A stretch of 64,000 nucleotides of DNA from Methylotenera sp. (GTDB lineage: Bacteria; Pseudomonadota; Gammaproteobacteria; Burkholderiales; Methylophilaceae). The DNA is taken from assembly GCA_013141075.1 (NCBI GenBank), contig JABFRQ010000005.1:558001-622000 (forward strand). The letters run 5' to 3'. Below, one piece after another: positions 9,830 through 36,510 of this stretch. The notes below the pieces were generated by a model. That model made no database searches, was not told where the DNA came from, and saw only the letters and a program-made list of their open reading frames with translations. How positions within the stretch are numbered: the first letter of the stretch is position 1; every line of letters begins with the position of its first letter. The position numbers and the translations under genes are program-made.

Positions 9830-10149
9830 CGCGCCTTAACCTCATTTTGTTTTTTGCGTTGATATTCTCAGCATTGGGGCTAGTGAATTCTCAGCACAAA
9901 GCACGCAATTTATATATTGTGCTTGAGCAAGCGAGTCAAACTGCCAAGCAGATTGAGCAAGAATATGGACAGCTGCAATTAGAGCAAAGTACTTGGGCGA
10001 TGCATTCACGCATTGAGCAAATTGCATCACAAAAAATGCAAATGCAGGTGCCAGATGCTAAGCGCGTGCAGGTGGTAGCGCCTACTCAATCTGAAGCCTT
10101 GTTAGCAGCCGACAAGCTCAAAAAACTACAAGGCGAGGCGACGCAATAA
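9826..10149 (+). CDS. ftsL: Cell division protein FtsL
   Basis: A small bitopic divisome protein that forms the FtsQLB complex. It has 107 residues: a short N terminus, one membrane segment at about 4-20, then a periplasmic coiled-coil with many Gln/Glu (about 30-80). Sequence conservation is low, but size, topology and position between rsmH and ftsI are diagnostic. It overlaps rsmH by ATGA and ftsI by one base (TAATG). Confidence 0.9.
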
Positions 10150-11909: not shown

Positions 11910-13342
11910 GTATTTTAGCCTCTTTCAATCAGTCCTTTACTGGCATCACTGCTGATAGCCGCGGCGTGCAAGGTGGCGCATTATTCTTAGCTTACAAAGG
12001 CGCAAAAACTGACGGGCGTGATTATATTGTGCAAGCTATTCAAGCAGGTGCGGCGGCAGTGGTTTGGGAGCAAGAAGGCTTTACTTGGAATGCTGATTGG
12101 CAGGTAAGCAATGCACCCGTGCAAGATTTAAAACAAAAAGTTGGGCAAATTGCAGCTGAGTTTTATGGTCGCCCATCAAGTAAATTGGCCATGATAGGCG
12201 TAACTGGCACAAATGGTAAAACCTCTGTAAGCCAATGGATAGGGCAATGCCTAACTGTATTAGGCAAAAAAACAGCAGTGCTAGGCACCATTGGTAATGG
12301 CTTTTTAGGTAATCAAACAACAGCCACAAATACCACGCCAGATGCGATTTTACTGCAAGGCATGCTGGCAGATTATGTGGCACAGCAAGCGGATGCGGTA
12401 GTGATGGAAGTTTCATCGCATGGAATAGACCAGGGCCGAGTGAATGGTGTGGAATTTGATATTGCAGTGTTGACTAATTTAAGCCGCGACCATTTGGATT
12501 ATCACGAAACCATGGGGGCTTATGGCGATGCCAAACAAAAATTGTTCGCTTGGGATGGTCTAAGCGCGGCGATAGTGAATGTGGATGATGCTTTTGGTAG
12601 CGAACTTGCGAATACGCTCAAAACGCAGGGCAAGCCATGCACGACCTATGGTTTTGAAATGGCTGATGTGCTTGGTAGCAGCTTGAAATTGCATGATGCA
12701 GGTTTAAGCATGCAAGTTGTAACCTCACAAGGTGCTGCCCTGCTAGCCGCGCCAGTACTAGGCCGCTTTAATGCGTATAACTTGTTGGCGGTGTTAGCCA
12801 CGTTATTGGCGCTAAAAGTGAACTTGGCAGATGCTGTGGGCGCAATTGCAAAAATTAAACCAGTGCTAGGTCGCATGCAGCAATTTGGTGGTGGCGATAT
12901 GCCGCTAGTTGTGGTGGATTATGCACACACGCCAGATGCTTTAGAAAAAGTATTAAGTACGCTAAAAGAGCAAGCGCAAGGTCAATTGATTTGCGTGTTT
13001 GGCTGTGGCGGAGACCGCGATGCTGGCAAACGCCCACTTATGGGCGCAGTTGCTGGCAAATTGGCGAACGTGGTGATTGTGACTTCAGATAATCCGCGTA
13101 GTGAAGACCCCTCGGCAATTATTGGCGCCGTTGCGAGTGGCATGCAAGGCAAATTTAGCATTGAGCCAGACCGCGCAATTGCTATTCAACAAGCCGTTCA
13201 ATTAGCCAAACTAGGCGATATTGTGCTGGTAGCAGGCAAAGGCCATGAAAATTATCAAGAAATTTCAGGCATAAAACACCCATTCGATGATGTGCTAGTG
13301 GCGCAGGCTGCATTAAAAGCGCGTGCGGGAGCATTCGCATGA
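11906..13342 (+). CDS. murE: UDP-MurNAc-tripeptide synthetase (meso-diaminopimelate adding)
   Basis: Cytoplasmic Mur ligase that adds meso-diaminopimelate to UDP-MurNAc-L-Ala-D-Glu. The ATP loop GTNGKTS is at about 99-105. The DNPR motif (SDNPRSEDP at about 395) is the signature that selects diaminopimelate rather than lysine. It starts at GTG overlapping the ftsI stop (GTGA), with a strong AAGGAGGG upstream. At 478 residues it is slightly shorter than E. coli MurE. Confidence 0.96.
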   Translation: MSILASFNQSFTGITADSRGVQGGALFLAYKGAKTDGRDYIVQAIQAGAAAVVWEQEGFTWNADWQVSNAPVQDLKQKVGQIAAEFYGRPSSKLAMIGVTGTNGKTSVSQWIGQCLTVLGKKTAVLGTIGNGFLGNQTTATNTTPDAILLQGMLADYVAQQADAVVMEVSSHGIDQGRVNGVEFDIAVLTNLSRDHLDYHETMGAYGDAKQKLFAWDGLSAAIVNVDDAFGSELANTLKTQGKPCTTYGFEMADVLGSSLKLHDAGLSMQVVTSQGAALLAAPVLGRFNAYNLLAVLATLLALKVNLADAVGAIAKIKPVLGRMQQFGGGDMPLVVVDYAHTPDALEKVLSTLKEQAQGQLICVFGCGGDRDAGKRPLMGAVAGKLANVVIVTSDNPRSEDPSAIIGAVASGMQGKFSIEPDRAIAIQQAVQLAKLGDIVLVAGKGHENYQEISGIKHPFDDVLVAQAALKARAGAFA

Positions 13343-14715
13343 TGTTGTTGAGCGAAGCCGCTAATGTCCTGAAAGCCAAATTTATTGGCAAAGACGCCGA
13401 GTTTACCAGCGTGGGCACAGATAGCCGCAATGTAACAAAAGGTCAGCTGTTTGTCGCGCTAAAAGGTGAACATTTTGATGGACATGACTATGCCGCGCAA
13501 GCTATAGCGCAAGGCGCAGCGGCAGTGCTATTGTCAAGTCCAAATCTAGGTGTAGAGCCAGTGATTATGGTTGAGGATACCTATCAGGCGCTGGGGTTAT
13601 TGGCGACATATTGGCGTGCGAAGTTTGCGATTCCAGTGGTAGCTATTACAGGCAGCAACGGTAAAACCACTGTGAAAGAAATGACTACGGCGATTTTGGC
13701 GGCTAAAGCGGGCAGTATCGATGCGGTACACGCCACGGTAGGTAACTTGAATAACCATATTGGCTTACCGCTTACGCTACTTAGGTTGCGCGCTACACAC
13801 AAGTTTTCAGTGCTAGAAATGGGCATGAGTCATTTGGGCGAAATTGAATATTTATCGAATATTGCCAAGCCGAATGTGGCGGTTATCAACAATGCAGGCA
13901 CCGCGCATATTGGTGAAGTCGGTTCACGCAACAACATTGCTAAGGCAAAAGGTGAGATTTTTGCAGGCTTGAGTGATAGTGGCGTAGCGGTGATTAACGC
14001 GGATGATGATTTTGCAAGCTATTGGAAATCGCTCAATGCAGGTAAAAAAATGATTACTTTTGCTTTAAAAAATGACGCTGACGTAACTGCTAAATTTGAA
14101 GAAAAAGAAGGCGTAAGCCAAGTACATTTAACTACGCCAGAAGGCAGCATTAGCTTTAAGTTGGCAGTTTTAGGTGCGCATAACATCAGTAATGCGCTAG
14201 CAGCAAGCTCTGTAGCAGTTGCGCTGGGCGTGAGTAATGCAGATATTGCTTGCGGATTAAGTGGCTTTGGCGCAGTAAAAGGCCGCTTGCAACGCAAGAC
14301 GGGGCTGAATGGCGCTGTGATTATTGACGACACCTACAACGCCAACCCAGATTCAATGAAAGCGGCCATTGATGTGTTAGTCAATATGGCAGGAAAAAAA
14401 ATACTAGTGCTGGGCGATATGGGCGAATTAGGCGCAGATGCAAAAAATATGCATGCCGAAATTGGCGTTTATGCAAAGTCGGCTGGTTTAGCTAGTTTGT
14501 TTTGTATAGGTGAATTAAGTGCAGAAATGGTGCGTGGTTTTGGAGTTGGCGCTCAGCAGCATGCAACGCCAGAAGCTATTTCAGATGCAGTTAAGCAGCT
14601 ATTAAGCCAAGGCGTAACAGTACTTGTAAAAGGTTCGCGCTTTATGAAAATGGAACGTGTCGTAGATTTGCTAGAAGAAAAACTGAACGAAAAAACAGTC
14701 ATGGAGGATAAGTAA
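13339..14715 (+). CDS. murF: UDP-MurNAc-tripeptide D-alanyl-D-alanine ligase
   Basis: Mur ligase that adds D-Ala-D-Ala to complete the pentapeptide precursor. GSNGKTT near 110-116 binds [14 protein letters not shown] near 138-148 and [10 protein letters not shown] near 333 are MurF signatures. At 458 residues the length is normal. It overlaps murE by four bases and mraY by one. Confidence 0.96.
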
Positions 14716-15818
14716 TGTTATTAGAGCTTGCTCGTTATTTAGCACACGATATTCGTGGTTTTAATGTAATTAACTACATTACCTTGCGAGCGGTGCTTGC
14801 TACTCTCACAGCCTTGGCGATTTCATTTATCGTAGGCCCAGGCATGATTCGCAAACTGACGGAATATAAAGTTGGCCAAGCCGTGCGCGATGATGGCCCC
14901 CAAACGCATCTCATTAAAACGGGCACGCCAACCATGGGTGGCGCCCTCATATTGGTAGCCATAGCAATCTCTACTTTACTTTGGGCAGACCTAAGTAACC
15001 GTTTTGTGTGGGTGGTGTTGATCACAACGCTAGGCTTCGGTGCGGTTGGCTGGGTGGATGATTACCGTAAAGTCGTTTATAAAAACCCTAAAGGATTATC
15101 AGCAAAAGCGAAGTATTTTTGGCAAAGTTTAATTGGCTTTGCGGTTGCAGGTTTTTTATACAGTACTGCTACAACGCCCGCGGAAACCACGCTCATCGTG
15201 CCGTTCTTTAAGCATTTAGTGCTGCCTTTGAGTGCGGTTGGTTTTATTGTGCTGACGTATTTGGTGGTAGTAGGTAGCAGCAATGCAGTGAATTTAACTG
15301 ATGGCTTAGATGGTTTAGCAATATTGCCAACGGTGATGGTGTCTAGCGCTTTGGGAATTTTTGCTTATGTAGCTGGGCATTTATATTTTTCAAAATATCT
15401 AGGTGTGCCTTATGTGGCGGGCGCTGGTGAGCTCATGGTGTTCTGCGCCGCAATGGCAGGTGCAGGTTTGGGATTTTTATGGTTCAACGCTTACCCAGCA
15501 GAGGTATTTATGGGTGACGTTGGCGCGCTGGCCTTAGGCGCGGCGCTGGGTATTGTGGCGGTGATAGTTCGCCAAGAAATTATTCTTTTCATTATGGGCG
15601 GCGTATTTGTGGTGGAGACTTTTTCGGTAGCCGTGCAAGTGCTGTATTTTAAATACACCAAACATAAAACTGGCACAGGTAAACGTATCTTTTTAATGGC
15701 GCCATTGCATCATCATTATGAAGAAAAAGGTTGGAAAGAAACGCAAGTAGTCGTGCGCTTTTGGATTATTAGCATGATGTTGGTGTTAATTGGTTTGGCA
15801 AGTTTGAAGTTGAGATAA
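14715..15818 (+). CDS. mraY: Phospho-MurNAc-pentapeptide transferase
   Basis: Integral inner-membrane enzyme with about ten hydrophobic segments. It moves phospho-MurNAc-pentapeptide to undecaprenyl phosphate, making lipid I. The TPTMGG loop (about 72-77), WVDDYRK (about 115), [10 protein letters not shown] (about 194-203) and HHHYEEKGW (about 333) are the family's catalytic and cytoplasmic-loop motifs. At 367 residues the length is typical. A 22-base gap separates it from murD. Confidence 0.97.
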
Positions 15819-15840
15819 GGCTAAACTTAAAAAGTAAAAC

Positions 15841-17220
15841 ATGAAAATTGCCCTAAAAGACAAAAAAGTATTAGTGCTAGGCCTAGGTGAAACAGGCTTA
15901 TCAGCTTTGCGCTGGCTAGCTGCACAGGGTGCCCGCTTGTCTGTGGCAGATACACGTGAGAATCCACCTGGGGTTGAAGCGTTACAAACTGAATTGCCCA
16001 ATGTCCAAATGTTCACAGGTGCATTTCAAGCCAGTACTTTTATGGATGTTGATTTAATTGTAGCTAGCCCTGGCGTGCCATTGAGCGAGCCTGAAATTCA
16101 AGCAGCAGTTGCTCGTGGTGTTAGCGTGATAGGGGATGTTGAATTATTTGCACGCTATGTCAATAAAAAAGCCCGCGATAAGCACGCAAAAGTGATTGCA
16201 ATTACTGGCGCTAACGGTAAAACCACCGTGACCACTTTAGTGGGCGAAATGTGCAAAGCGGCGGGTTTAAAAACTATCGTCGCAGGTAATATCGGCTTGC
16301 CAGTGTTAGATGCATTAAGCATGGAAACGCCTGATGTGTATGTGCTTGAACTTTCAAGTTTTCAGTTGGAAACCACCAGCACTTTGCAAGTGGATGCAGC
16401 CACAATGCTGAACTTGTCTGAAGACCACATGGATAGATACGAGAGTTTTCAGGATTACGCCATTGCTAAAGCGCGCATTTTTTACAATGCAACATTGCAA
16501 GTGCTTAATCGTGATGATGCGTGGAGCATGTTGATGGCGCGGCCAAAATTGGCGCAAGTGACCTTTGGGATCAATACAAATACAAATCTGAATAGCGGCG
16601 AGTATGGTTTAAAACAAGATGATGGCGGCACATGGCTTTGTGAGGGCGAAAAAGAGCTGATTAACCTGCAAGACCTTAAAATTGTCGGCTTGCATAACGC
16701 GGCTAATGCTTTAGCAGCCGTTGCGTTGTGCCGCGGCATTGGTATTGATTATGCGCATATCATTCAAACGCTATACAACTTCAAAGGCTTGCCACACCGC
16801 GTGGAATGGGTAGCCAACATTGATGAAGTTGATTATTACGATGATTCAAAAGGCACTAATGTAGGTGCAACCTGCGCTGCGTTGGCTGGGTTGCCACAAA
16901 AAGTGGTGCTAATTGCAGGCGGTGATGGCAAAGGTCAAGACTTTGCGCCATTAAAAAACGCCGTGGCTGAAAACGCCCGTGCTGTGGTGCTCATTGGTCG
17001 CGATGCGCCAATCATTGAAGCTGCATTATTGCAAACGGGCATACCTTTATATCAAGCCATTGACTTGCCTGAAGCGGTGAATATTGCAAAAAAATTAGCA
17101 CAAATAGGCGATGCGGTTTTGTTATCACCCGCTTGTGCAAGTTTTGATATGTTCAAAAATTATGTGCATCGCGCAGAAGTCTTTGTTGCGGCCGTGCAAA
17201 AGTTGAAGGAATTGGCATGA
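15841..17220 (+). CDS. murD: UDP-MurNAc-L-alanine:D-glutamate ligase
   Basis: Cytoplasmic Mur ligase adding D-glutamate to UDP-MurNAc-L-Ala. An N-terminal Rossmann region ([12 protein letters not shown]) is followed by the ATP loop TGANGKTT near 121-128 and LSEDHMDRY near 193. DDSKGTN near 337 and [10 protein letters not shown] near 429 mark the C-terminal domain. At 459 residues the length is normal. It overlaps ftsW by four bases. Confidence 0.96.
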
Positions 17221-18380
17221 TTACCGCCATGTTAAATCGCGACCGTATCAATTCACCAAACTATGACCAAGGATTGTTGTGGGCAGTATTGTGCTTGCTA
17301 GGCATTGGGCTAGTGATGGTGTATTCCGCCTCCATTGCGATTGCAGAAGCCGACAAAGGCGTGGGTCACAACAGCAGTTATTACTTGGTACATCAAGCCA
17401 TATTTATGTTGGTGGCGCTCATTGCGTCATTTGTGGCATTCAATATACCTGTGGCTTGGTGGCAAAAAATGGCGCCGTATTTATTTCTCATAGGGCTGGC
17501 ATTGTTGGTGCTAGTGCTTATTCCTGGTATTGGGCTTAAAGCAGGCGGAAGCCGCCGCTGGTTGAAATTGTTTGTAGTGAACCCGCAACCTTCAGAATTT
17601 ATGAAGCTGTTTGCCGCTATTTATGTGGCAGATTACACCGTGCGTAAAGCAGCAGTGATGCAGAGTTTTAGGCATGGCTTTTTCCCAATGTTAGTTGTGA
17701 TGTTGGTCGTAGGCGGTTTGTTATTACGCGAGCCTGATTTTGGTGCATTTGCGGTCATTGCGGCCATTTCTATCTCAATTTTATGGTTGGGTGGCATTAA
17801 CGGTCGTATTTTTATAGGTTTGATTATTTTATTGGTGGTGGGTTTTGTGTTCTTGATTTGGAGCTCGCCGTATCGGTTAGAACGCGTTATTGGCTTTATG
17901 GATCCGTGGGCTGATCCATATGGTAAGGGTTATCAGCTCTCACATGCATTAATAGCCTTTGGGCGCGGCGAATGGCTTGGCGTGGGCTTGGGTGCTAGCG
18001 TAGAAAAATTACTCTATTTACCTGAAGCACACACCGACTTTTTATTAGCGGTAATCGCCGAAGAATTAGGTTTTATTGGCGTGCTAACTGTAATTGGTTT
18101 GTTCGGCTGGATTGTGATTCGTGCATTTGGCATCGCAAAAGAAGCCATTGAAAATGAGCGCTATTTTGCCGCGTTACTTTCTCAAGGTTTAGGTGTTTGG
18201 ATGGGAGTGCAAGGCATTATCAACATGGGCGTGAATATGGGCTTGCTGCCAACTAAGGGTTTAACGCTACCCTTACTTTCGTTTGGTGGTAGCGGCATCT
18301 TGGCAAATTGCGTAGCGATGGCGATTATTCTCAGAATTGATTTTGAAAATCGCCGCTTGCAGAAAGGCTTGCCAGCATGA
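17217..18380 (+). CDS. ftsW: Septal peptidoglycan glycosyltransferase FtsW
   Basis: SEDS-family polytopic membrane protein that polymerises lipid II at the septum together with FtsI. About ten hydrophobic segments are visible across 387 residues. Signature stretches include [17 protein letters not shown] (with the essential Asp), and the C-terminal PLLSFGGSG. It overlaps murD and murG by four bases each. An alternative start four codons downstream is possible. Confidence 0.96.
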
Positions 18381-19450
18381 CGCAAACTAGCAAAACTTTG
18401 ATGGTAATGGCAGGCGGCACGGGCGGCCATGTTTACCCTGCAATGGCAGTGGCTGATTACTTAAAAGCAAAAGGCTGGAACATCGTGTGGCTATGCACGG
18501 AAGGCGGTATGGAAAATCGCTTGATTGAAAACAGTGGTTACGCAAAAGCCATGATTACCATGCAAGGCGTGCGTGGCAAAGGCCTAATGGGCTGGGTGTT
18601 GTTGCCTGTAAAATTGGTAAAAGCGTTTGCGCAAAGTGTTGCGGCTATTCGTCAGCATCAACCGAACGTGGTGCTGGGCATGGGTGGTTTTGCGGCTTTT
18701 CCAGGTGGTTTGATGGCGAAATTACTGGGCAAACCTTTGGTAATACATGAGCAAAATTCAGTAGCTGGTTTAACCAATAAAGTGTTGGCGAAGTTTGCAA
18801 CGCGTGTATTGGCAGCCTTCCCCGCAGCATTTGGTAGCAAGGCCCAATTAGTGGGCAACCCAGTGCGTGCTGATATTACAACGCTAGCAGCACCAGCAGT
18901 ACGTTTTGCTGGCCGCACAGGTGCACTGCGTTTGTTAGTGGTTGGCGGTAGTTTAGGTGCGCAGGGTTTGAATGAGGTAATACCGCAAGCATTAGCAAAA
19001 TTACCAATCGAACAACGTCCGCAAGTGGTTCACCAAGCGGGTGTTAAGCATATTGAGGTCTTAAAAAACAATTATGAAAACGCAGGTGTAGCGGCGGAAT
19101 CAAAAGCGTTTATTGATGATATGGCTAGCATGTACGCATGGGCAGACTTTGTGATTTGCCGTTCAGGCGCGTTAACCGTGGCAGAAGTTTCAGCAGTTGG
19201 TTTGGGTTCGCTCATGGTGCCATTTCCTTATGCTGTGGATGACCACCAAACTACCAATGCGGCCTATTTGGCTGATGGCGGTGCGGCTTGGGTGGTGCAA
19301 CAAAAAGACTTAACTGCAGAAAAGCTGGCAAAAATGTTAGGCGACTTAAATCGCGAGCAATGCTTGAGCATGGCGGTTAAGGCGCGCACATTAGGCTTAC
19401 CAAAGGCCACAGAAAATGTAGCTAATATTTGTGTTGAGGTTGCTCTTTAG
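18377..19450 (+). CDS. murG: UDP-GlcNAc:lipid I N-acetylglucosaminyltransferase
   Basis: Peripheral inner-membrane GT-B glycosyltransferase that converts lipid I into lipid II. The N-terminal glycine loop [10 protein letters not shown] is at 13-22, a second G-loop [11 protein letters not shown] near 99-109, the HEQNSVAG segment near 124 and the C-terminal nucleotide site [12 protein letters not shown]. At 357 residues the length is normal. Confidence 0.96.
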
Positions 19451-19463
19451 AGATATAAATTAT

Positions 19464-20873
19464 ATGAAACATAAAGTTAAAAATATACATTTTATTGGCA
19501 TCGGCGGTTCTGGCATGAGCGGTATTGCTGAAGTGCTGATTAACTTAGATTTTACCGTCACAGGCTCAGACTTGGCGGCCAATGCGACTACGCAACGATT
19601 AAGAGATTTTGGTGCAACTGTGTACAAAGGTCACACCGCTGAGAACTTAGGTGATGCCGATGTAGTGGTGGTTTCAAGCGCGGTGAATGAAGCCAACCCT
19701 GAAGTGATTGCGGCACGCGCTAAAAACATCCCCGTAGTGCCGCGTGCGTTGATGTTGGCTGAGTTGATGCGCTTTAAACAAGGCATTGCGGTGGCTGGCA
19801 CACATGGCAAAACCACAACAACTAGCTTAATCGCGAGCATTTTAGGCGAAGCTGGCATGGACCCAACCTTTGTGATTGGCGGCAAGTTAGAAGCCGCCAA
19901 TGCCAACGCAAGGCTTGGTACAGGCGAATATATTGTGGCAGAAGCAGATGAATCAGATGCTTCATTCCTACATTTAACGCCTGTGATGGCAGTGGTCACT
20001 AATATTGACCAAGACCACATGGACACTTACGAGCATAGCTTTGATAAGCTCAAAAGTGCCTTCGTAGAATTTTTACAGCAATTGCCGTTTTGGGGCATGG
20101 CGGTCGTGTGCATTGATGATGCGAATATTCGTGAAATTTTACCTCGTGTGACCAAACCGGTGATGACTTACGGTTTTAGTGAAAACGCAAAAGTGCGTGC
20201 AATTAACGTGCGCGCAGATGACGGAAAAATGCACTTTACTGTGCAACGCATTAACGGAAAGATGACAGAGTTTGATGTGACTTTGAACTTACCAGGCAAC
20301 CATTACGTGTTGAATGCGCTTGCTGCCATTGCAATTGCTAGTGAATTAAACGTGCCAGATGCGGCGATTATTAAAGCGCTTAAAGAGTTTAAAGGTGTAG
20401 GTCGCCGCTTTGAGCATTATGGTGAAATTGCCTGTAAAGACGCTGGGACATTCACCTTAATTGACGATTATGGTCACCACCCAGTTGAAATGCAAGCGGT
20501 GATTGCCGCTGCGCGCGCAGCTTTCCCAAATCGCCGATTGGTGATGGCGTTTCAGCCGCATCGTTACACACGCACGCGTGATTGCTTTGAAGACTTTGTT
20601 CGCGTACTTTCAAGCGCAGATGCAGTGTTACTGACAGAAGTGTATTCCGCAGGCGAAGCGCAAATCGTAGCGGCAGATACGCGCTCGCTTATTCGTTCAA
20701 TTCGTGTGGCAGGCAAAGTTGAGCCGCTATTTGTGGAAACGACAGATGAGTTGCCCGAAGCGATTATCAATATAGCGCAAGCGGGCGACGTGGTGATTGT
20801 GATGGGCGCTGGCTCAATCGGCCACGTGGCAGAAAAAACAAGAACGCTAGCAAATGGAGCGCAAGCAAGCTAA
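19464..20873 (+). CDS. murC: UDP-MurNAc:L-alanine ligase
   Basis: First Mur ligase, adding L-alanine to UDP-MurNAc. [12 protein letters not shown] near 10-21 is the N-terminal nucleotide motif, [10 protein letters not shown] near 111 binds ATP, and DDYGHHPVE near 333 is the MurC signature. The frame is open from 19431 but that start would overlap murG by 20 bases. The ATG at 19464 gives [10 protein letters not shown], the usual family start, and a 469-residue product. Murein ligase order in the cluster is conserved. Confidence 0.95.
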
Positions 20874-21770
20874 ATGACACAAGCTGCACACAATTTAACA
20901 GGAAAATTGCTATTAAATGAGCCAATGGCGCGCTATACCAGCTGGCGTGTGGGCGGCAAGGCAGACCAGTTGTATATTCCTGCAGGATTGGAAGATTTAC
21001 GTACGTTTTTAAAAAGCCTAGATAGCGCTAAACCGATTTATTTTGTGGGGCTAGGTTCTAACTTATTGGTGCGCGATGGCGGCGTGCGCGGCATAGTTAT
21101 CATCATGCATAACGTGCTCACTGAGTTAAAAATGGAAGATGACCTTGTGTACTCGGAAGCTGGCGTTACCTGCGGAAAATTAGCCAAATTTTGCGCGAAA
21201 GAAAGTAAACAAGGCGCAGAGTTTTTTGCAGGTATTCCTGGCACATTGGGCGGTGCACTGGCGATGAATGCAGGTTGCTACGGCACCGAAACGTGGAATG
21301 TGGTGCACAGCGTGACCACTATTAACAAGCAAGGTGACCTCAAAAAACGTAACGCAGCTGAGTTTATTGCGAGTTATCGCCATGTAGATATGCCAGTTGC
21401 AGATGAATGGTTTGTTGCCGCTTGGCTAGATTTAAAAGCAGGCGACGCACAGGAATCAGCATTAAAAATCAAAAACTTATTGGCCACAAGGTTAGCTTCG
21501 CAGCCACTTAATTTGCCAAGCGCAGGTTCAACTTTTAGAAACCCAGCGGGTGATTTTGCAGCGCGGTTGATAGAAGCAAGCGGTTTAAAAGGTTACACCA
21601 TGGGTGGTGCGCAAGTGTCAGAAAAGCATGCCAATTTCATTGTGAATATTGGTGAGGCAAATGCGCTGGATATTGAACTGTTGATTAAACATATGCGTGA
21701 AACCGTGCTTGAGAAACAAGGCGTGGCATTGCAGCAAGAAGTAAAAGTGATTGGGGAATATGCGTCATGA
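20874..21770 (+). CDS. murB: UDP-N-acetylenolpyruvoylglucosamine reductase
   Basis: FAD-dependent, NADPH-using reductase that makes UDP-MurNAc. The FAD-binding [10 protein letters not shown] is near 22-31 and [12 protein letters not shown] near 59-70. [18 protein letters not shown] near 121-138 and the catalytic AGSTFRNP near 219 are present. At 298 residues this is the short class lacking the E. coli C-terminal extension. Its ATG follows the murC stop directly. Confidence 0.96.
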
Positions 21771-22702
21771 ATATGAGCCTAAAGCAAAAGTTTGGCAAAG
21801 TAGCCGTGTTACTAGGCGGAAAATCAGGTGAGCGTGAAGTGTCGCTTAAAAGTGGCACGGCGGTGTTAAAAGCATTGCAAGGGCAAGGTGTAGATGCACA
21901 CGGTTTTGACCCGCGTGATAAACCCTTACACGATTTAGAAGCGTTTGACCGCGTATTTATTAACCTGCACGGCCGTTTTGGTGAAGATGGCTGCATGCAG
22001 GGCGCGCTTGAAATGTTGCATATTCCGTACACGGGTAGCGGCGTGATGGCGTCTGCAATTGGTATGGATAAATGGCGCACCAAATTATTATGGCGCGCAA
22101 TGAACGTAATAACGCCAGATTTTGAGTTGGTGACAGCCACCAGCGACTTTGCGGCAATTGAAAAGAAATTAGGTTTGCCACTGTTTGTGAAGCCTGCGAA
22201 TGAAGGCTCTAGCATTGGTATTAGCAAGGTTAAAAATGAGGGTGGCCTAGAAGCCGCATATCTATTGGCTGCCAAGGCAGATCCTTTAGTGATTGCTGAG
22301 AAGTTTGTAGGTGGTGGTGAATATACCGTAGGCATTATTGCGGATGGCAAAGGTGATTTTACGGCCTTACCGATTATCCGCATTGTGCCGAAAAATGAAT
22401 TTTATGATTTCGAAGCTAAATACCTACGCAACGATACCGAGTATTTATGCCCTTGCGGCTTAAGCGATGAGAAAGAAAAACAAATTCAGCAAGAAGCCTT
22501 GCTGGCGTTTAAAGCTGTTGGTTGTAAAGGCTGGGGTCGTGTGGATTTTTTAATGGATGAGGCAGGGACTCATTACTTTTTAGAGCTAAATACCAGCCCA
22601 GGTATGACAGACCATAGCCTTGTACCAATGGCAGCAAAAGCCGCGGGTATTAGCTTTGAAGCATTAGTAGTGCGAATTTTGGAGTCTGCTGATGTGGGAT
22701 AA
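21767..22702 (+). CDS. ddlB: D-alanine--D-alanine ligase
   Basis: ATP-grasp ligase that makes the D-Ala-D-Ala dipeptide used by MurF. Seen: the [12 protein letters not shown] start, HGRFGEDG near 67, the ATP-grasp loop [14 protein letters not shown] near 143, and the metal-binding [16 protein letters not shown] near 271-286. At 311 residues the length is normal. The first ATG overlaps the murB stop; a second ATG two codons later is equally possible. It overlaps ftsQ by 11 bases. Confidence 0.96.
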
Positions 22703-23549
22703 ACCTACATTGTTGAACTGGACTGCAAATCTGCTTTTTGCGATTAGTGTCGTGGTGATGCTATATGCAACTTTATATGTGGTGGTGCATTTGCCCATAT
22801 TTCCGCTACGTGAAGTAAATGTGGAAGGCCAGTTAAACCATGTGAACCGTGAGCAGGTGAAACTAATAGTGGCTAAACATTTAAAAGGTAATTTTTTTAC
22901 GTTAGATTTAATTAAAACGCGTGATGCGTTTGAAAAGTTGCCTTGGGCACGCAATGTGAGTGTTCGCCGCCGTTGGCCAGATACACTAGAGGTGGTGGTT
23001 GAAGAGCATCAAGCATTGGCACGTTGGGGCACAATTGCCTTAGTGAATACGCATGGCGAGTTATTTCATGCGGCTTCTAGCAGTGAGTTGCCTATGTTTT
23101 ATGGCCCAGGAGACGGTGTAATGGAGGTGGCTGCAAATTTTATTGAATTTAGTAAAGCCTTTGAAAACACAAATTTAGAGATTGCAAATTTAGCGCTTAC
23201 GCCAAGGCGTGCATGGCAAATTACCACAACCAACGGCATGGTCATGGAGTTGGGGCGCGTAGAAATGCTGCCTAGATTAAAGAAATTTGTGAATGTGTAT
23301 AGCAATACGATTGCCGCTTTGAATATGAAAGTGACTTATGCAGATTTGCGTTACCCCAATGGATTCGCGGTGCGTAGGCCAGTAAATGCTAAGCCAGTAG
23401 AAGATGTGCTTGTTGAAGAAGCTGGCAGTACCAAGAAATTAGCAAAAGATAAAACAAGCGGCATTAAATTAAATACGACCAAAGCTTTGGGCGTAAGCGT
23501 ACCGAAAAAAGTAGTACCTAGCGTGGATATTCCACGGAGCATTATTTAG
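22692..23549 (+). CDS. ftsQ: Cell division protein FtsQ
   Basis: Bitopic divisome protein of 285 residues. It has an inner-membrane anchor at about 10-32, then a periplasmic POTRA domain ([18 protein letters not shown], about 37-54) and the FtsQ beta domain ([21 protein letters not shown]). It links FtsA/FtsK with FtsL/FtsB. The last 50 residues are Lys/Val-rich and poorly conserved. Position between ddlB and ftsA confirms the call. Confidence 0.95.
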
Positions 23550-23608
23550 CCATTGATTTTTTTGTAGTAGACATAAAGCCGTGCAATTAAGTGCGGAGGG
23601 AGCAAGCC

Positions 23609-24847
23609 ATGAGTAGAGTGAAGGAAGATAAAAATTTGATTGTAGGCCTAGATATTGGCACATCAAAAATCGTTGCAATTGTTGCTGAGTTGCAGCCTGA
23701 AGGCACGATTAAGGTAATCGGGCTTGGTCAGCATATTTCTCGCGGGCTTAAAAAAGGCGTGGTTATCAATATTGAATCTACCATGCAATCTATCCAGCGT
23801 GCGCTTGAAGAAGCCGAACTAATGGCGGATTGCAAAATTAACAATGTCTACACGGGCATTGCTGGTAGCCACATTAAAAGCTTGAACTCTCACGGTATGG
23901 TGAAAATTAAAGACGCAGAAGTCTCACAAATGGATGTAGACCGCGTGATAGAAACGGCGCGTGCAATCGCCTTGCCAGCAGATCAGCAGATTTTACATAT
24001 TTTAACGCAAGAGTTCATTATTGACGGCCAAGAAGATGTGCGCGAGCCACTAGGTATGAGCGGCATGAAGCTTGAAGTAAAAGTGCATATCGTCACAGGT
24101 GCTGTTGCCGCCGCGCAAAATATTGTGAAATGCATTAAGCGTTGCGGTATTGAAGTGAGTGACTTGATTTTACAGCCACTGGCCTCTAGCCTTGCGGTAC
24201 TCACTGAAGATGAAAAAGAATTGGGTGTTTGCTTAGTGGATATTGGTGGTGGAACTACGGATATTGCGGTGTTCAAGCAAGGCGCAATCCGCCACACGGC
24301 CGTTGTGCCCATCGCGGGCGACCAAATGACTAATGATGTAGCAGTAGCATTTCGCACGCCTACACAATCAGCCGAAGAAATTAAAATTAAACATGGCTGC
24401 GCACTCGGTCAGCTGGCTGACCCGCGTGAAATTATTGAAGTGCCAGGCGTAGATGGCCGTGAGGCTCGCCAGTTATCAGTGCAAACGCTATCAGAAGTGC
24501 TAAACCCGCGTGTTGAAGAGCTTTATAAACTCGTGCTAAATGAATTGCGCCGTAGCGGCATGGAAGAAATGATTGCCTCTGGCATCGTGATTACAGGTGG
24601 CTCAGCCATGATGCGCGGCATGGTGGAATTGGGCGAAGAAATATTTCACATGCCAGTGCGCCTAGGCCTGCCGCGCTATGTTGGCGGATTATCTGAGGTG
24701 GTGAGTAACCCAAGATATTCAACGGCTGTGGGTTTGGTGTTAATGGGTAAGCAGCAGTTAGAAAGACATATTACTGGGCAATTGGAAACTAGCTCATTTG
24801 GCCGCATGTTTGACAAAATGAAAAGTTGGTTTGCAGGTAATTTTTAA
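23609..24847 (+). CDS. ftsA: Cell division protein FtsA
   Basis: Actin-like ATPase that tethers FtsZ filaments to the inner membrane. LDIGTSKI near 15-22 is phosphate loop 1, LVDIGGGTTDIAVF near 209 is loop 2, and ITGGSAMMRG near 329 is the adenosine motif. The C-terminal MFDKMKSWFAGNF is the membrane-binding amphipathic helix. The ATG at 23609 has GGAGGG eight bases upstream, which excludes an in-frame GTG at 23591 inside the binding site region. Product: 412 residues. Confidence 0.95.
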   Translation: MSRVKEDKNLIVGLDIGTSKIVAIVAELQPEGTIKVIGLGQHISRGLKKGVVINIESTMQSIQRALEEAELMADCKINNVYTGIAGSHIKSLNSHGMVKIKDAEVSQMDVDRVIETARAIALPADQQILHILTQEFIIDGQEDVREPLGMSGMKLEVKVHIVTGAVAAAQNIVKCIKRCGIEVSDLILQPLASSLAVLTEDEKELGVCLVDIGGGTTDIAVFKQGAIRHTAVVPIAGDQMTNDVAVAFRTPTQSAEEIKIKHGCALGQLADPREIIEVPGVDGREARQLSVQTLSEVLNPRVEELYKLVLNELRRSGMEEMIASGIVITGGSAMMRGMVELGEEIFHMPVRLGLPRYVGGLSEVVSNPRYSTAVGLVLMGKQQLERHITGQLETSSFGRMFDKMKSWFAGNF

Positions 24848-24861
24848 AAAAGTGGTTGTTA

Positions 24862-24935
24862 AAAGTTAGTTAGAAGTAAGTAGTTATGGCAGGCAGTTAA
24901 AGAAGTTTGAGGCAAAGTTAGTTAGCAGTGATTAG
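24862..24935 (+). repeat. Imperfect 22-base direct repeat between ftsA and ftsZ
   Basis: AAAGTTAGTTAGAAGTAAGT (24862-24881) followed by AG recurs as AAAGTTAGTTAGCAGTGATT (24914-24933) followed by AG, 52 bases downstream, with four differences. The pair fills much of the leader of ftsZ. It may be a tandem duplication without function or a binding site pair. Confidence 0.5.
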
Positions 24936-24983
24936 TTGCGAGCATCAACTAATGGCTATTTTTCAAAAAAGAGGAGATATAAA

Positions 24984-26159
24984 ATGTTTGAGATTATGGA
25001 AAAAAATTCACAAGAAGCTGTCATCAAGGTAATTGGTGTAGGCGGTTGTGGTGGTAATGCAGTGGCACATATGATTGAAAAAAATGTCGGTGGCGTAGAA
25101 TTTATTTGCGCTAATACTGATATGCAAGCGCTTAAAAAGAGCCAAGCAAAAACAATATTGCAAATGGGTGTTGCCATGACTAAAGGCTTGGGCGCAGGTG
25201 CTAAGCCAGAAATCGGCCGCGATGCTGCACTAGAAGACCGTGATGCAATTGCTGAACTCATTGATGGTGCAGATATGCTGTTTATTACTGCAGGTATGGG
25301 CGGCGGCACAGGCACAGGCGCAGCACCAGTGATTGCACAAGTGGCGAAAGAAATGGGTATTTTAACCGTAGCGGTGGTGACTAAACCTTTCTCTTTTGAA
25401 GGAAAACGCACTAAAGTCGCGGCAGATGGTCTAGAAGAATTATCAAAGTATGTAGATTCATTGATTGTGATTCCAAACGAAAAATTGATGGAAGTATTAG
25501 GTGAAGATGTACCATTTTTAGAAGCGTTTAGAGCGGCTAACGATGTGTTGCATAATGCGGTTTCAGGCATTGCTGAAATCATCAACTGCCCAGGTTTAGT
25601 GAACGTAGACTTTGCCGATGTGCGCACTGTGATGAGTGAAATGGGTATGGCGATGATGGGCTCTGCCATTGCAACTGGCCCAGACCGCGCACGTATCGCG
25701 GCTGAACAAGCGGTAGCTAGCCCATTGCTTGAAGATGTTAACTTAGCGAATGCGCGTGGCGTTTTAGTGAATATCACTACTTCAGCTTCTTTCAAAATGA
25801 AAGAATATTATGATGTGATGAACACCATTAAAGCCTTTACCGCAGAAGATGCAACCGTGATTGTAGGTAATGTGTTTGATGAAAGCATGGGTGATGGGTT
25901 ACGCGTAACAATGGTAGCCACTGGCTTAACTGGCTCACAACGCCGTCAGCAAAAACCTGAATTGCGTATCATGCAGCAAGAAATCGTGCGTAACGGTACT
26001 ACTGGTCAGCCAATATTTATGGGTGGTGATATGCAAGTAGCGGATGATGCGCCACAAGTATTTGGCTCAAATAGCCGTCGTGCGCAAGTGGAAGCAATGA
26101 AAATGTCTGGTGTGGAAGAATATGATATTCCAGCATTTTTACGTAAACAAGCGGACTAA
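24984..26159 (+). CDS. ftsZ: Cell division protein FtsZ
   Basis: Tubulin-like GTPase that forms the Z ring. The GTP-binding GGGTGTG is near 105-111, and the N-terminal GVGGCGGNAV near 19-28. The C-terminal conserved peptide EYDIPAFLRKQ binds FtsA and ZipA-type partners. The start is fixed by GAGGAG at 24971-24976, eight bases before the ATG; an in-frame start at 24936 has no such site. Product: 391 residues, normal length. Confidence 0.97.
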   Translation: MFEIMEKNSQEAVIKVIGVGGCGGNAVAHMIEKNVGGVEFICANTDMQALKKSQAKTILQMGVAMTKGLGAGAKPEIGRDAALEDRDAIAELIDGADMLFITAGMGGGTGTGAAPVIAQVAKEMGILTVAVVTKPFSFEGKRTKVAADGLEELSKYVDSLIVIPNEKLMEVLGEDVPFLEAFRAANDVLHNAVSGIAEIINCPGLVNVDFADVRTVMSEMGMAMMGSAIATGPDRARIAAEQAVASPLLEDVNLANARGVLVNITTSASFKMKEYYDVMNTIKAFTAEDATVIVGNVFDESMGDGLRVTMVATGLTGSQRRQQKPELRIMQQEIVRNGTTGQPIFMGGDMQVADDAPQVFGSNSRRAQVEAMKMSGVEEYDIPAFLRKQAD

Positions 26160-32318: not shown

Positions 32319-32897
32319 CTAAGCGTTAATTAGCGTTGTAATTTGTTGTTGCGCAAATTCTGTTGGTTTGCGCTTAAAACTACTTTTTACAAATTGCTGC
32401 CAGCGACCCGCAATATAACAGACCATTAAATTGGCTTGTGCCTCAGCATCAGCTTTAGTGCCAGCTTGTTCAGATGCATGTTGCGCCTCAGCAATGCGTA
32501 GGCTTTGTTTGAGCGTTACTTCAATGCGGTCATACAATTGGTTAATGCGAGCTTGTAGCTTTTCATCTTCATTCACTAATGCATCGCCAATGAGTACGCG
32601 GGTCATGCCAGGGTTTTTTTCAGCAAACACGAGCAACATGGTGATAATGCGTTGCACTTGTCTTAAGCCATCAGTTTCTTCAGTGCTAATTTTGTTAATT
32701 AGACCGAAAATTGTTTCTTCAATAAAAGATATTAAGCCTTCAAACATTTGCGCTTTATTAGCAAAATGGCGGTAAAGCGCAGCTTCGGAAACTTCTAATT
32801 TTGCTGCGAGCGAGGCTGTAGTAATTTTCTCGCGTTTAGGTGACTCCAACATTTTGGCTAAAGTTTCTAAAATTTGTTGTTTGCGCTCGCCTGCCAT
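32319..32897 (-). CDS. slmA: Nucleoid occlusion factor SlmA
   Basis: TetR-family DNA-binding protein that blocks FtsZ assembly over the chromosome. The N-terminal helix-turn-helix is at about 23-46 (TTASLAAKLEVSEAALYRHF), followed by the SlmA-type core (FANKAQMFEGLISFIEETIFG). At 192 residues the length matches. Its gene lies near a HAD nucleotidase and argB, a neighbourhood that recurs in betaproteobacteria. Confidence 0.92.
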   Translation of the reverse strand: MAGERKQQILETLAKMLESPKREKITTASLAAKLEVSEAALYRHFANKAQMFEGLISFIEETIFGLINKISTEETDGLRQVQRIITMLLVFAEKNPGMTRVLIGDALVNEDEKLQARINQLYDRIEVTLKQSLRIAEAQHASEQAGTKADAEAQANLMVCYIAGRWQQFVKSSFKRKPTEFAQQQITTLINA

Positions 32898-32932
32898 TTA
32901 ATATTCCCCATACATTTTAAAAATATCAGAAA

Positions 32933-33565
32933 TTATAGCTTAATGTGAGTGAGTGCTAACACTTCGTTCAAACGATAATCGACAAAACTTGGTTTTTTTA
33001 ATTGGCGGCTAATCCAAATGGTTTTCATGCCCAGCTGTTTGGCGGTCATTAGTGCGGGTAGGCTATCTTCTAGCATCACACAGTCGCTTGCTTTAGCTTT
33101 AATTGTTTGCAGCAACATTTGAAAGCCGCGAACAGAAGGTTTGCTGTGAAACTTGGTAGATTCCACACTAAATACAAGCTCAAAACAGTCTGCAATACCC
33201 ATAATTTCCAGTACGCGCAAAGCGTAAGCACGTGGCGCGTTAGTGAACACTAATTTACGCCCTGAAAGACTATTGAGTAAGTGGCGCAAGCGCTTCACTT
33301 GTAACACCATTTCTGGCAAGTTTAAGTAATGGTGTGTTTCATGCAGAAAGTGGTGCGGGTTTGTATTGTGGTGGCGAACTAAGCCTTTAAGCGTTGCGCC
33401 ATAAACTTGCCAATAATGTTGGCGTAGTTTGTGAGCGCTGGCTTCATCTATTGTAAGCGCATCCATCATGTATTGCGTCATGGCGAGATTCATCACAGGG
33501 AAAATATGCGCCGAGGCGTTGTGAAGCGTATCGTCTAGGTCAAAAATCCAGATTCTGTCAGACAT
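32933..33565 (-). CDS. HAD-family pyrimidine 5'-nucleotidase
   Basis: A 210-residue HAD hydrolase. Motif I is FDLDDTLHN (9-17), motif II VFTNA near 103, motif III Lys near 137, and motif IV VMLEDSLPAL near 157. The N-terminal helical cap (AMTQYMMDALTID) fits the Sdt1/pyrimidine 5'-nucleotidase subfamily, which removes phosphate from UMP/CMP-like nucleotides. The substrate is inferred from subfamily resemblance only. Confidence 0.82.
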   Translation of the reverse strand: MSDRIWIFDLDDTLHNASAHIFPVMNLAMTQYMMDALTIDEASAHKLRQHYWQVYGATLKGLVRHHNTNPHHFLHETHHYLNLPEMVLQVKRLRHLLNSLSGRKLVFTNAPRAYALRVLEIMGIADCFELVFSVESTKFHSKPSVRGFQMLLQTIKAKASDCVMLEDSLPALMTAKQLGMKTIWISRQLKKPSFVDYRLNEVLALTHIKL

Positions 33566-33586
33566 TTAAAAGTAAATTTCCTCGCC

Positions 33587-33660
33587 CGTCATTCTGAGCA
33601 AAGTGAATAATCCAGTGCATTTATATAGCAGTTGGATTCATTGATACACTCTGAATGACG
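33587..33660. repeat. Degenerate REP-like palindrome (GTCATTCTGAG type)
   Basis: CGTCATTC (33587-33594) is the reverse complement of GAATGACG (33653-33660), with imperfect continuation TGAG.../...CTCT and the internal pair GAATAATCC/GGATTC. It lies between the nucleotidase and argB. Confidence 0.55.
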
Positions 33661-33684
33661 AAAGTGGTATTGAGTGCCGAACAC

Positions 33685-34587
<903 letters not shown>

Positions 34588-34728: not shown

Positions 34729-36357
34729 TTATAAAGATTTAATAAATACCTTAGATTTACGCTGAAAGTTGTAAAGTTTTTGTTTTTCTTGTGGTAGTTT
34801 TTCAACCGATTGTTGGCTGAAGCCACGCTCTAAAAACCAATGCTCGGTGCGCGTAGTGAGGCAAAACAGCTGCTTAAAGCCTAAAGTTTTGGCTTGGTTT
34901 TGGCAGTAATTAAATAGTTTATCACCACGCCCACCGCCGCGGTATTGCGGGTCAATCGCAAGGCACGCAAATTCTGCCATTTTATTTTCACTAAATGGAT
35001 AAAGCGCCGCGCAGCCAATGGTGTGGTTGTCATGTTCCATCACATAAAAGTGCGCAATTTCCATTTCAATGCGCTCGCGCCCACGGCGCACTAATATGCC
35101 TTCATTTTCTAGCGGCTCTATCAGTTTTAATATGCCACCAACATCGTCAATAGTGGCTTGACGCATGGTTTCTAGTGGCAGTTCGGTCACCATAGTGCCT
35201 ATGCCTTCAAGCGTAAATAACTCTTGAATAATGGCGCCATCAATGTGACGGCTAATTAAATGCGTACGCGCCACGCCGTGCTCACAAGCACGCACAGCAG
35301 CTGGCAAGTAATATAAAGTGTCTTCAGAAACATGTAGCGGATTTTCGTTGCCGCTTACATTTTTGAGTAAGTTTTTGGCTTTATCTGCCGTCATTTCACG
35401 TAATAATTCACCGCGCAAGTTTTGCACACCTTCTGAATCCATCAAAAAGATGAGCTTGTCAGCATCTAAAGCAATGGCGGTGCTTACCGCCACGTCTTCC
35501 AAGCTTAAGTTAAAAACCTCACCTGTGGGTGAATAACCCAGCGGCGATAGCAGCACCAGCTCGCCATCATTTAAACGTTTTTGAATGCTAACTGCATCTA
35601 CTTTGCGCACCTCGCCCGTATGTTGCAGGTCAACACCATCGAGCACACCTAGCGGTTTTGCCGTCACAAAATTACCGCTCGCCACGCGAATGTCCGCGCC
35701 CGCCATAGGTGAATTAGCAATGGCCATTGAAAGTAAAGCTTCAATTTCTACCCGCACCGCACCGTTAGCCTCTTTTACGGCTTCCATCGCTTCATCGTCA
35801 GTCACTCGTAAGCCATTATGAAAAGTGGGAGTGAGCTTGTCGCGCTTTAAACGCTTTTCAATTTGCGGGCGTGCACCATGCACCAGCACCAGCCTTACTT
35901 CAAGGCTGGCAAGCAGATTCAGGTCGTGCGTGAGTGTGATAAATTGCTTTTCATCTACAATTTCGCCACCAAACGCAATCACAAAAGTACATCCGCCAAA
36001 CGCGTGAATATACGGCGTAGCAGAGCGAAACCACTGCACAAAATCTTTGCTGCTGGGCTGGTTTTGCGGCAGCACAGGCGCAGCTTGGTAAGTTGAGCGT
36101 TGCAATTCTGCCGTTAGCGGGAGGCTAGCAGTAGGTAATGAATATGGCGTATTCATTGCATCACTCTGCGCATAAAGCGTTGCTGGCGTGGTATCTAGCG
36201 CCGCCGCAATTTTGCGCAATAGCGCTTCAGAAACGCCTAGCTCACCTCGCTCAATACGCGATAAATTGCCCGCATCTGCCTCAACCGCAATAGCCAGTTG
36301 CTGCAAAGTGAAATGGCGAGATTTGCGTAAATTGCGGATTTGATTGCCGAGAGACAT
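34729..36357 (-). CDS. argA: N-acetylglutamate synthase with an N-terminal Cro/CI helix-turn-helix domain
   Basis: From the ATG at 36357 the product has 542 residues. Residues 1-60 form an HTH_XRE domain (GNQIRNLRKSRHFTLQQLA, then GNLSRIERGE and LLRKIAAALDTTP). A loose linker (about 65-105) leads to the amino-acid-kinase-like domain (about 106-380, FVIAFGGE, LVHGARPQIEKRL), then a GNAT domain (about 390-535; CoA loop QYRGGGRG). The last two domains are the classic ArgA layout, acetylating glutamate with acetyl-CoA. ArgA normally starts near residue 103, so the DNA-binding domain is extra. An in-frame TTG at 36369 is a poorer start; an internal ATG at 36156 could yield an HTH-less form but has a weak binding site. 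Palindromes at its own promoter suggest autoregulation. Confidence 0.9.
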   Translation of the reverse strand: MSLGNQIRNLRKSRHFTLQQLAIAVEADAGNLSRIERGELGVSEALLRKIAAALDTTPATLYAQSDAMNTPYSLPTASLPLTAELQRSTYQAAPVLPQNQPSSKDFVQWFRSATPYIHAFGGCTFVIAFGGEIVDEKQFITLTHDLNLLASLEVRLVLVHGARPQIEKRLKRDKLTPTFHNGLRVTDDEAMEAVKEANGAVRVEIEALLSMAIANSPMAGADIRVASGNFVTAKPLGVLDGVDLQHTGEVRKVDAVSIQKRLNDGELVLLSPLGYSPTGEVFNLSLEDVAVSTAIALDADKLIFLMDSEGVQNLRGELLREMTADKAKNLLKNVSGNENPLHVSEDTLYYLPAAVRACEHGVARTHLISRHIDGAIIQELFTLEGIGTMVTELPLETMRQATIDDVGGILKLIEPLENEGILVRRGRERIEMEIAHFYVMEHDNHTIGCAALYPFSENKMAEFACLAIDPQYRGGGRGDKLFNYCQNQAKTLGFKQLFCLTTRTEHWFLERGFSQQSVEKLPQEKQKLYNFQRKSKVFIKSL

Positions 36358-36376
36358 GAAATTAACCAACTTAAAA

Positions 36377-36419
36377 TGTATAATTTACATTATTTAAACA
36401 TAAATTTGTACTATTTACA
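36377..36419 (-). promoter_or_regulatory. Twin operators TGTA-N5-TACA upstream of HTH-argA
   Basis: TGTATAATTTACA (36377-36389) and TGTACTATTTACA (36407-36419) share both half-sites and spacer length, and their centres are exactly 30 bp apart, about three helical turns. A related TGTA-N4-TACA lies at 36459-36470. The symmetry and size fit an XRE-family dimer site. The argA product carries such a domain. Confidence 0.65.
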
Positions 36420-36420
36420 A
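36392..36420 (-). promoter_or_regulatory. Possible argA promoter between the twin operators
   Basis: On the minus strand, TTGTAA (36420-36415) is followed after 17 bases by TTAAAT (36397-36392). The -35 lies inside one palindrome, and the start point, near 36385, falls inside the other. Bound protein at either site would block RNA polymerase. Confidence 0.45.
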
Positions 36421-36510
36421 TTTATATGGGCTCTAAAGAGTGCTCGTTAAAACGCTGTTGTAAAATTACATCAAAAAATTCGCATGAAAATTTATTAGTT
36501 GGATTTCTTA

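Follow-up and report, generated by a model that had tools for sequence, protein, structure and literature searches.

An argA gene fused to a DNA-binding domain

Within the window, i.e. the whole 64,000-nucleotide stretch of the Methylotenera sp. contig analyzed here, the list of open reading frames contains a minus-strand frame (34729-36369) in which a Cro/CI-type (XRE) HTH domain and N-acetylglutamate synthase (NAGS, ArgA) follow each other without interruption. Translation likely starts at the ATG at 36357, giving a protein of 542 amino acids, and not at the TTG at 36369, since relatives align from the equivalent methionine. The locus has the following features:

34729..36357, minus strand: argA coding sequence, HTH-NAGS fusion of 542 amino acids, stop codon included (ORF list, Pfam, NCBIfam)
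36169..36357, minus strand: Cro/CI-type (XRE) HTH domain, residues 1-63 (Pfam; modelled as helices)
36247..36273, minus strand: recognition-helix region AGNLSRIER, residues 29-37 (family alignment)
36049..36168, minus strand: variable low-confidence linker, residues 64-103, holding the internal Met68 at 36156 (alignment, dN, model)
34732..36048, minus strand: NAGS core, AAK domain followed by GNAT domain (Pfam, NCBIfam, structure match)
35455..35457, minus strand: K301, equivalent of the arginine-binding K201 described for Neisseria NAGS (alignment)
35194..35223, minus strand: arginine-site loop ELFTLEGIGT, residues 379-388, matching the described E-(L/I)-(F/M)-(T/S)-X-X-G-X-G-T
33685..34569, minus strand: argB, acetylglutamate kinase, the downstream neighbour, without HTH (Pfam, NCBIfam)

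A sequence-only reading of this DNA had claimed HTH and ArgA in one frame, and this is borne out by the ORF list together with domain models over cut-off. The domain-database search which that reading had suggested recovered HTH, AA_kinase and GNAT families in Pfam: HTH_31 (5e-9, residues 3-60), HTH_26 (residues 7-62) and HTH_3 (residues 7-59), all over cut-off, followed by AA_kinase at residues 124-369 and GNAT families at about residues 431-514. Both ArgA equivalog models agree, NF003641 matching residues 101-542 (9e-209, 693.8 bits against a cut-off of 344) and TIGR01890 scoring 594.3 bits against a cut-off of 202.85. Residues 101-542 therefore form a complete classical NAGS. Among solved structures, Neisseria gonorrhoeae NAGS matches best. 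In the genome of the window, which is about 90% complete, the search recovered no other ArgA, the second match being the adjacent argB.

With classical NAGS ArgA (Neisseria gonorrhoeae 2r8v/3d2p; NF003641, TIGR01890) the fusion shares the AAK and GNAT domains, the arginine-site loop, the lysine and glutamate of that site and most catalytic residues. In contrast, the classical family models and the Neisseria chain lack the HTH, because their alignment begins only at about residue 101. The arginine site, whose loop motif is described in the available text of a NAGS review (PMC4490483), is kept in the alignment with Neisseria NAGS (K301, E379 and the ELFTxxGxGT loop). We mapped the catalytic and glutamate-binding residues given there (PMC4490483) by eye on the same alignment (Neisseria R316, E353, C356, S392, R425 and S427): R425, E462, C465, R533 and S535 of the fusion are identical to their counterparts, and the general acid S392 corresponds to T501, a single Ser-to-Thr change. 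The fusion enzyme is probably active as a NAGS and, by analogy with its Neisseria and Pseudomonas homologues (PMC4490483), presumably forms a hexamer. According to the same available text, arginine moves the N-terminal helix of the AAK domain in Neisseria NAGS and reshapes the hexamer (PMC4490483). In the fusion, the linker from the HTH leads directly into the counterpart of this helix, modelled with low confidence at residues 104-117.

Downstream of argA, at 32319-34569 on the minus strand, the window holds argB along with genes for a HAD-type hydrolase and an SlmA-like TetR protein. In several relatives the sequence after argA is a different one, and its linkage to argB is accordingly not fixed. 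Elsewhere in the window, a long run of genes on the plus strand (10149-26159), of which three tested reading frames are two Mur ligases and FtsZ, is consistent with a division/cell-wall cluster, and one reading frame ends in a Cys/Pro-rich, repeat-like tail.

Distribution of the fusion

Frame-by-frame reading placed the HTH in frame at 148/153 argA loci of Methylophilaceae, whereas it was found at 0/50 loci from other families. The 153 family loci include repeats of one gene; the 148 with an HTH correspond to 102 distinct genes (told apart by the initial 600 core bases) with 98 distinct upstream sequences, and they represent all 24 Methylophilaceae genera, including genomes of 1.3 Mb. Such recurrence of the same in-frame fusion across the family is far beyond chance and confirms that the HTH-ArgA fusion is real and not an assembly error. 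The five misses comprise a locus centred on argB with a truncated argA (L002), one with a masked stretch that leaves the HTH unreadable in frame (L195), two contigs beginning inside argA (L086, L088) and a Methylobacillus glycogenes draft in which the argA frame is broken after an intact HTH (L083), perhaps by a sequencing error.

A search gave a match in 179 of 187 family genomes, some of them to fragments or to argB only; among the matches listed, most of the strongest run from residue 1-3. The matches in the small-genome genera g2 and g16 began near residue 100, yet the HTH is present there. The same protein occurs in named records of Methylotenera, Methylobacillus, Methylovorus, Methylophilus and Novimethylophilus. 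Outside the family, the matches listed for the order (399 genomes, of which 15 belong to Methylophilaceae) and the class (370 genomes) start at residue 67 or later and thus in the linker or the core; three rows begin at residues 26, 55 and 56 but cross in-frame stops.

No independent HTH-ArgA fusion was seen elsewhere with the family HTH profile, a search that would miss a very different DNA-binding domain: 0/50 outgroup loci match it (49 were scanned, L131 having only nine open-frame residues before the core). Among 40 more outgroup stretches with long open frames, none of the 34 extensions scanned scored better than E 1.9; five extensions were shorter than 25 residues, one stretch (L245) had no anchor, and one (G771) had already been seen as L137. 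A six-frame scan of L245 and the short L247 gave no HTH match better than E 0.7. Given this distribution across loci and genera, the fusion is best read as a fixed trait of Methylophilaceae.

Two further observations concern individual records. In the smallest genomes (genus g2, L150-L159) the HTH is much diverged and the N-terminus shorter in some, and several of them still have TGTA/TACA palindromes upstream. A record titled Sulfuritalea sp. (L044) has a fusion of the Methylotenera type whose N-terminus is identical to that of L029, a locus from the genus of the window; the title of the record is probably a mislabel.

Selection on the HTH domain and structure model

We divided dN by core dS in 51 pairs whose core dS was below 1.2 (45 pairs for the linker). 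The median ratio was lowest in the core (0.032), intermediate in the HTH (0.059) and highest in the linker (0.216). Many of the synonymous distances are high, and the motif-defined HTH border comes 10 residues too early in some pairs (L015, L017, L024, L027), so that HTH residues are there counted with the linker. Residues G30, N31, L32, S33, R34, E36 and R37 are invariant in 50 aligned proteins, namely the window protein and 49 of 54 usable relatives from named records. The recognition segment GNLSRIERG occurs in 81/96 family genes, with variants in 15, mostly from g2 and g15. Together, the dN ratio and the residue conservation indicate that the HTH is translated and under purifying selection, which argues against exclusive initiation at Met68. 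The idea that this internal start at 36156 is the sole one is accordingly hard to square with the constraint on the HTH codons; it may serve as a secondary start beside the ATG at 36357.

The linker varies widely among relatives in both length and sequence, and the Pro/Gln-rich character noted earlier in the window protein is not conserved as such. An AlphaFold prediction, proposed in the sequence-only reading, was informative in part. The HTH was modelled well, as five helices with a pLDDT of about 85-91 over residues 1-60, whereas the overall model was poor: from an alignment of 50 rows, again the window protein with 49 of the 54 usable relatives, the mean pLDDT was 60, most of the AAK domain stayed below 60 and the linker reached about 28-35. 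We therefore used only the HTH and GNAT parts. A fold search with the whole model returned NAGS, NAGK and GNAT structures in the best 50 rows and left the HTH unresolved there. By sequence, the nearest HTHs in a phage collection are repressors and regulators with 33-49% identity, and the relatives of the domain include the controller proteins C.AhdI and C.BclI.

Predicted operators at the argA promoter

The region upstream of argA contains a pair of 17-bp palindromes (TTTGY-N7-RCAAA) with a spacing of about 30 bp. In the window, the predicted sites and promoter elements are:

36405..36421, minus strand: predicted operator site 1, ATTGTAAATAGTACAAA, which overlaps with the putative -35 (family comparison)
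36375..36391, minus strand: predicted operator site 2, AATGTAAATTATACATT, which directly follows the putative -10 and lies 30 bp from site 1
36415..36420, minus strand: putative -35, TTGTAA, inside site 1 and 17 bp from the putative -10 (family comparison)
36392..36397, minus strand: putative -10, TTAAAT, abutting site 2 (family comparison)

The palindromes were first noticed in the upstream regions of representative genera and then scored as site pairs (maximum 20). Among the 98 distinct family upstream regions, 86 score at least 15, 69 at least 16 and 53 at least 17; in dinucleotide shuffles of these regions, about 10, 1.65 and 0.15 reach the respective scores. Two of 48 outgroup argA regions reach 15 and none reaches 16, but these regions are more GC-rich (0.51 versus 0.32 in the family), which makes the shuffles the fairer control. 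The geometry is conserved as well: the sites are 30 bp apart in 60 of the 86 pairs (29 bp in 15, 31 bp in nine and 32 bp in two), and 79/86 pairs begin 55-80 bp before the ATG. At this expected place 21/24 genus representatives score at least 15, while g9 and g22 score 14. The representative of g23 (L193) scores 11 there and has a perfect pair (20) further away, which is why its assumed start is probably wrong.

The pairs also coincide with a putative promoter. Site 1 holds a TTGYAW-like -35 hexamer in most of the 79 pairs, and in 47/79 the best TATAAT-like hexamer of the spacer runs right up to the border of site 2, which, with an offset of 30, gives the standard promoter spacing of 17 bp. 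In most relatives scored, the -10 is nearer to TATAAT than the TTAAAT of the window, where a generic promoter scan flagged nothing on the argA strand.

By counts, sequence variation in the HTH strongly follows that of the sites. With Leu after RG-x in the HTH, the variable base of the half-site is T in 173/200 positions, and with Gln it is C in 73/104. On the tree, the residue (Leu/Gln) and the half-site (TGT/TGC) agree in 71/74 rows, but these represent two independent pairs and are not significant; for this reason we kept the covariation out of the proof.

Predicted target specificity and the search for ArgR

With a stricter TTGYA pair pattern applied to eight genomes, argA was the sole best match in five, including the genome of the window, and tied in a sixth. 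In the other two, argA was neither the best nor among the matches listed; there, its sites are spaced by 29 bp or are divergent. The loose consensus gave 46 entries of at least 15 in the 64-kb window, 10 of them of at least 16, compared with a score of 15 for the argA pair. Across the genome, single sites are scarcely more frequent than a reversed control pattern (22 versus 17 matches). A perfect single site outside argA occurs once, within a methyltransferase gene that we take to be metW. Consequently, the operator claim rests on the comparison between genomes.

An arginine regulon under the same control is unsupported for argC, argF, argG and carA: of their upstream regions (10 genomes each, with stretches measured from the profile match instead of a verified start codon), 0/40 reach 16 and 6/40 reach 15. 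The argA promoter looks like the main or only target of HTH-ArgA. ArgR (PF01316) was found over cut-off in 0/187 family genomes, two having weak matches below it. This agrees with the available text of a survey reporting ArgR absent outside gammaproteobacteria among the proteobacterial genomes surveyed (PMC5343134).

Comparison with known regulators

Enzymes with acquired DNA-binding domains form an established class known as trigger enzymes (PMC8249747). Domain matches place an enzyme and a DNA-binding domain in one chain here as well, with DNA binding itself predicted. In this the fusion resembles E. coli PutA, BirA and NadR, but it differs from them in its enzyme, in standing at a biosynthetic entry step, in its XRE domain and in that its DNA binding is a prediction. 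A narrow target has precedent, as PutA binds only the putA-putP spacer according to the available text of the same source (PMC8249747).

BzdR/BoxR (NF006015) likewise combine an N-terminal XRE domain, a linker and an enzyme-derived C-terminal domain, and of the NCBIfam models NF006015 scores highest against the isolated HTH, although below cut-off and over the HTH part only. The shikimate-kinase-like C-terminal domain of BzdR/BoxR is absent from the fusion, which has AAK and GNAT domains instead. As described in the available text of the BzdR study, that domain has lost its activity and BzdR regulates benzoate genes; its authors built synthetic "missing link" chimeras with the E. coli enzyme (PMC3602430). 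Unlike BzdR, the fusion keeps the catalytic residues and seems to target its own gene. It thus looks like a natural counterpart of these chimeras.

Two further groups of regulators share single traits with the fusion. CI-like phage repressors and controller proteins of restriction-modification systems (C.AhdI) have similar HTH sequences, but lack an enzyme domain of the ArgA kind. Such repressors and controllers bind paired palindromic operators. ArgR is an arginine-binding hexamer that regulates arginine genes, as we propose for the fusion, which shows no Pfam match to Arg_repressor (PF01316).

A description of an HTH-NAGS fusion was not found in listings of open-licence papers, within which the earlier statement that no example is known agrees with our searches; the word DNA is absent from the main text of the NAGS review (PMC4490483). 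While the kind is known from PutA, BirA, NadR and BzdR, its HTH-ArgA member appears to be new.

Proposed mechanism and alternatives

We consider it likely that Methylophilaceae ArgA is a trigger enzyme, i.e. a catalytically competent NAGS whose acquired phage-repressor-like XRE domain represses its own gene. The earlier suggestion that the enzyme carries its own transcriptional regulator is supported by comparison, namely by the presence in 24 genera, the purifying selection on the HTH and the palindromes at the promoter. Since the paired predicted binding sites sit on the argA promoter, HTH-ArgA probably switches off its own gene. A NAGS would have gained an N-terminal phage-repressor-like XRE domain, and the HTHs of one hexamer would bind the two 17-bp palindromes, which at about 30 bp lie nearly three helical turns apart; six HTHs per hexamer would suffice for both. 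The palindromes would span the -35 region and the bases directly following the -10, and we propose that the bound protein blocks RNA polymerase in this way. Arginine is the presumed co-repressor: arginine-loaded hexamers would set pairs of HTHs on both operators. Because the arginine-site residues and nearly all catalytic residues are kept, arginine may control both enzyme activity and repression. The coupling of arginine binding or catalysis to gene control, which the sequence-only reading had suggested as well, is conceivable with this conserved arginine site. More tentatively, a single arginine site may run feedback inhibition and gene repression in one hexameric polypeptide that replaces ArgR at the committed step, a still-active intermediate between enzyme and repressor fixed across Methylophilaceae.

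This last proposal competes with a version in which the HTH autoregulates argA without arginine, sensing concentration to hold the amount of enzyme steady, while catalysis is feedback-inhibited separately. The long, poorly conserved linker with its low model confidence suits such loose tethering, and C.AhdI and C.BclI, relatives of the HTH, provide a ligand-free precedent. Both control their own genes without a ligand. A flexible, fast-changing linker also argues against rigid coupling from arginine to the HTH and makes the arginine-independent version almost as plausible. However, the arginine-site residues are conserved, and in Neisseria arginine moves the helix equivalent to the one after the linker (available text of PMC4490483), so that we regard arginine-independent autoregulation as a serious but somewhat doubtful option.

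It is improbable that the palindromes serve a separate argA regulator while the HTH of ArgA acts otherwise, at a different DNA site or in assembly. The covariation between HTH and operator, not being phylogenetically significant, leaves room for this reading; the pairs scoring at least 16, by contrast, occur at HTH-bearing argA and at 0/48 outgroup argA and 0/40 argC, argF, argG and carA regions, and a second regulator conserved alongside argA throughout the family would be less parsimonious. A vestigial or merely structural N-terminal extension that has lost DNA binding is very improbable in view of the strongly conserved recognition helix, the HTH ratio of 0.059 and the retention of the domain in 1.3-Mb genomes. 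Finally, an error of assembly or sequencing that merged two genes, named in the sequence-only reading as grounds for refutation, can be dismissed with near certainty, as the fusion recurs in frame at 148/153 loci (102 distinct genes) in numerous assemblies, among them those of named strains.

In the textbook picture, control by arginine at the committed step has two distinct layers: ArgA is inhibited allosterically, and ArgR represses the genes. Methylophilaceae, in which no ArgR over cut-off was found, appear to have merged both layers into one protein. If true, this would offer a case from nature in which to study the turning of an enzyme into a transcription factor, with specific predicted operators directly open to footprinting, and it would point to the way in which methylotrophs of biotechnological interest adjust their arginine synthesis.
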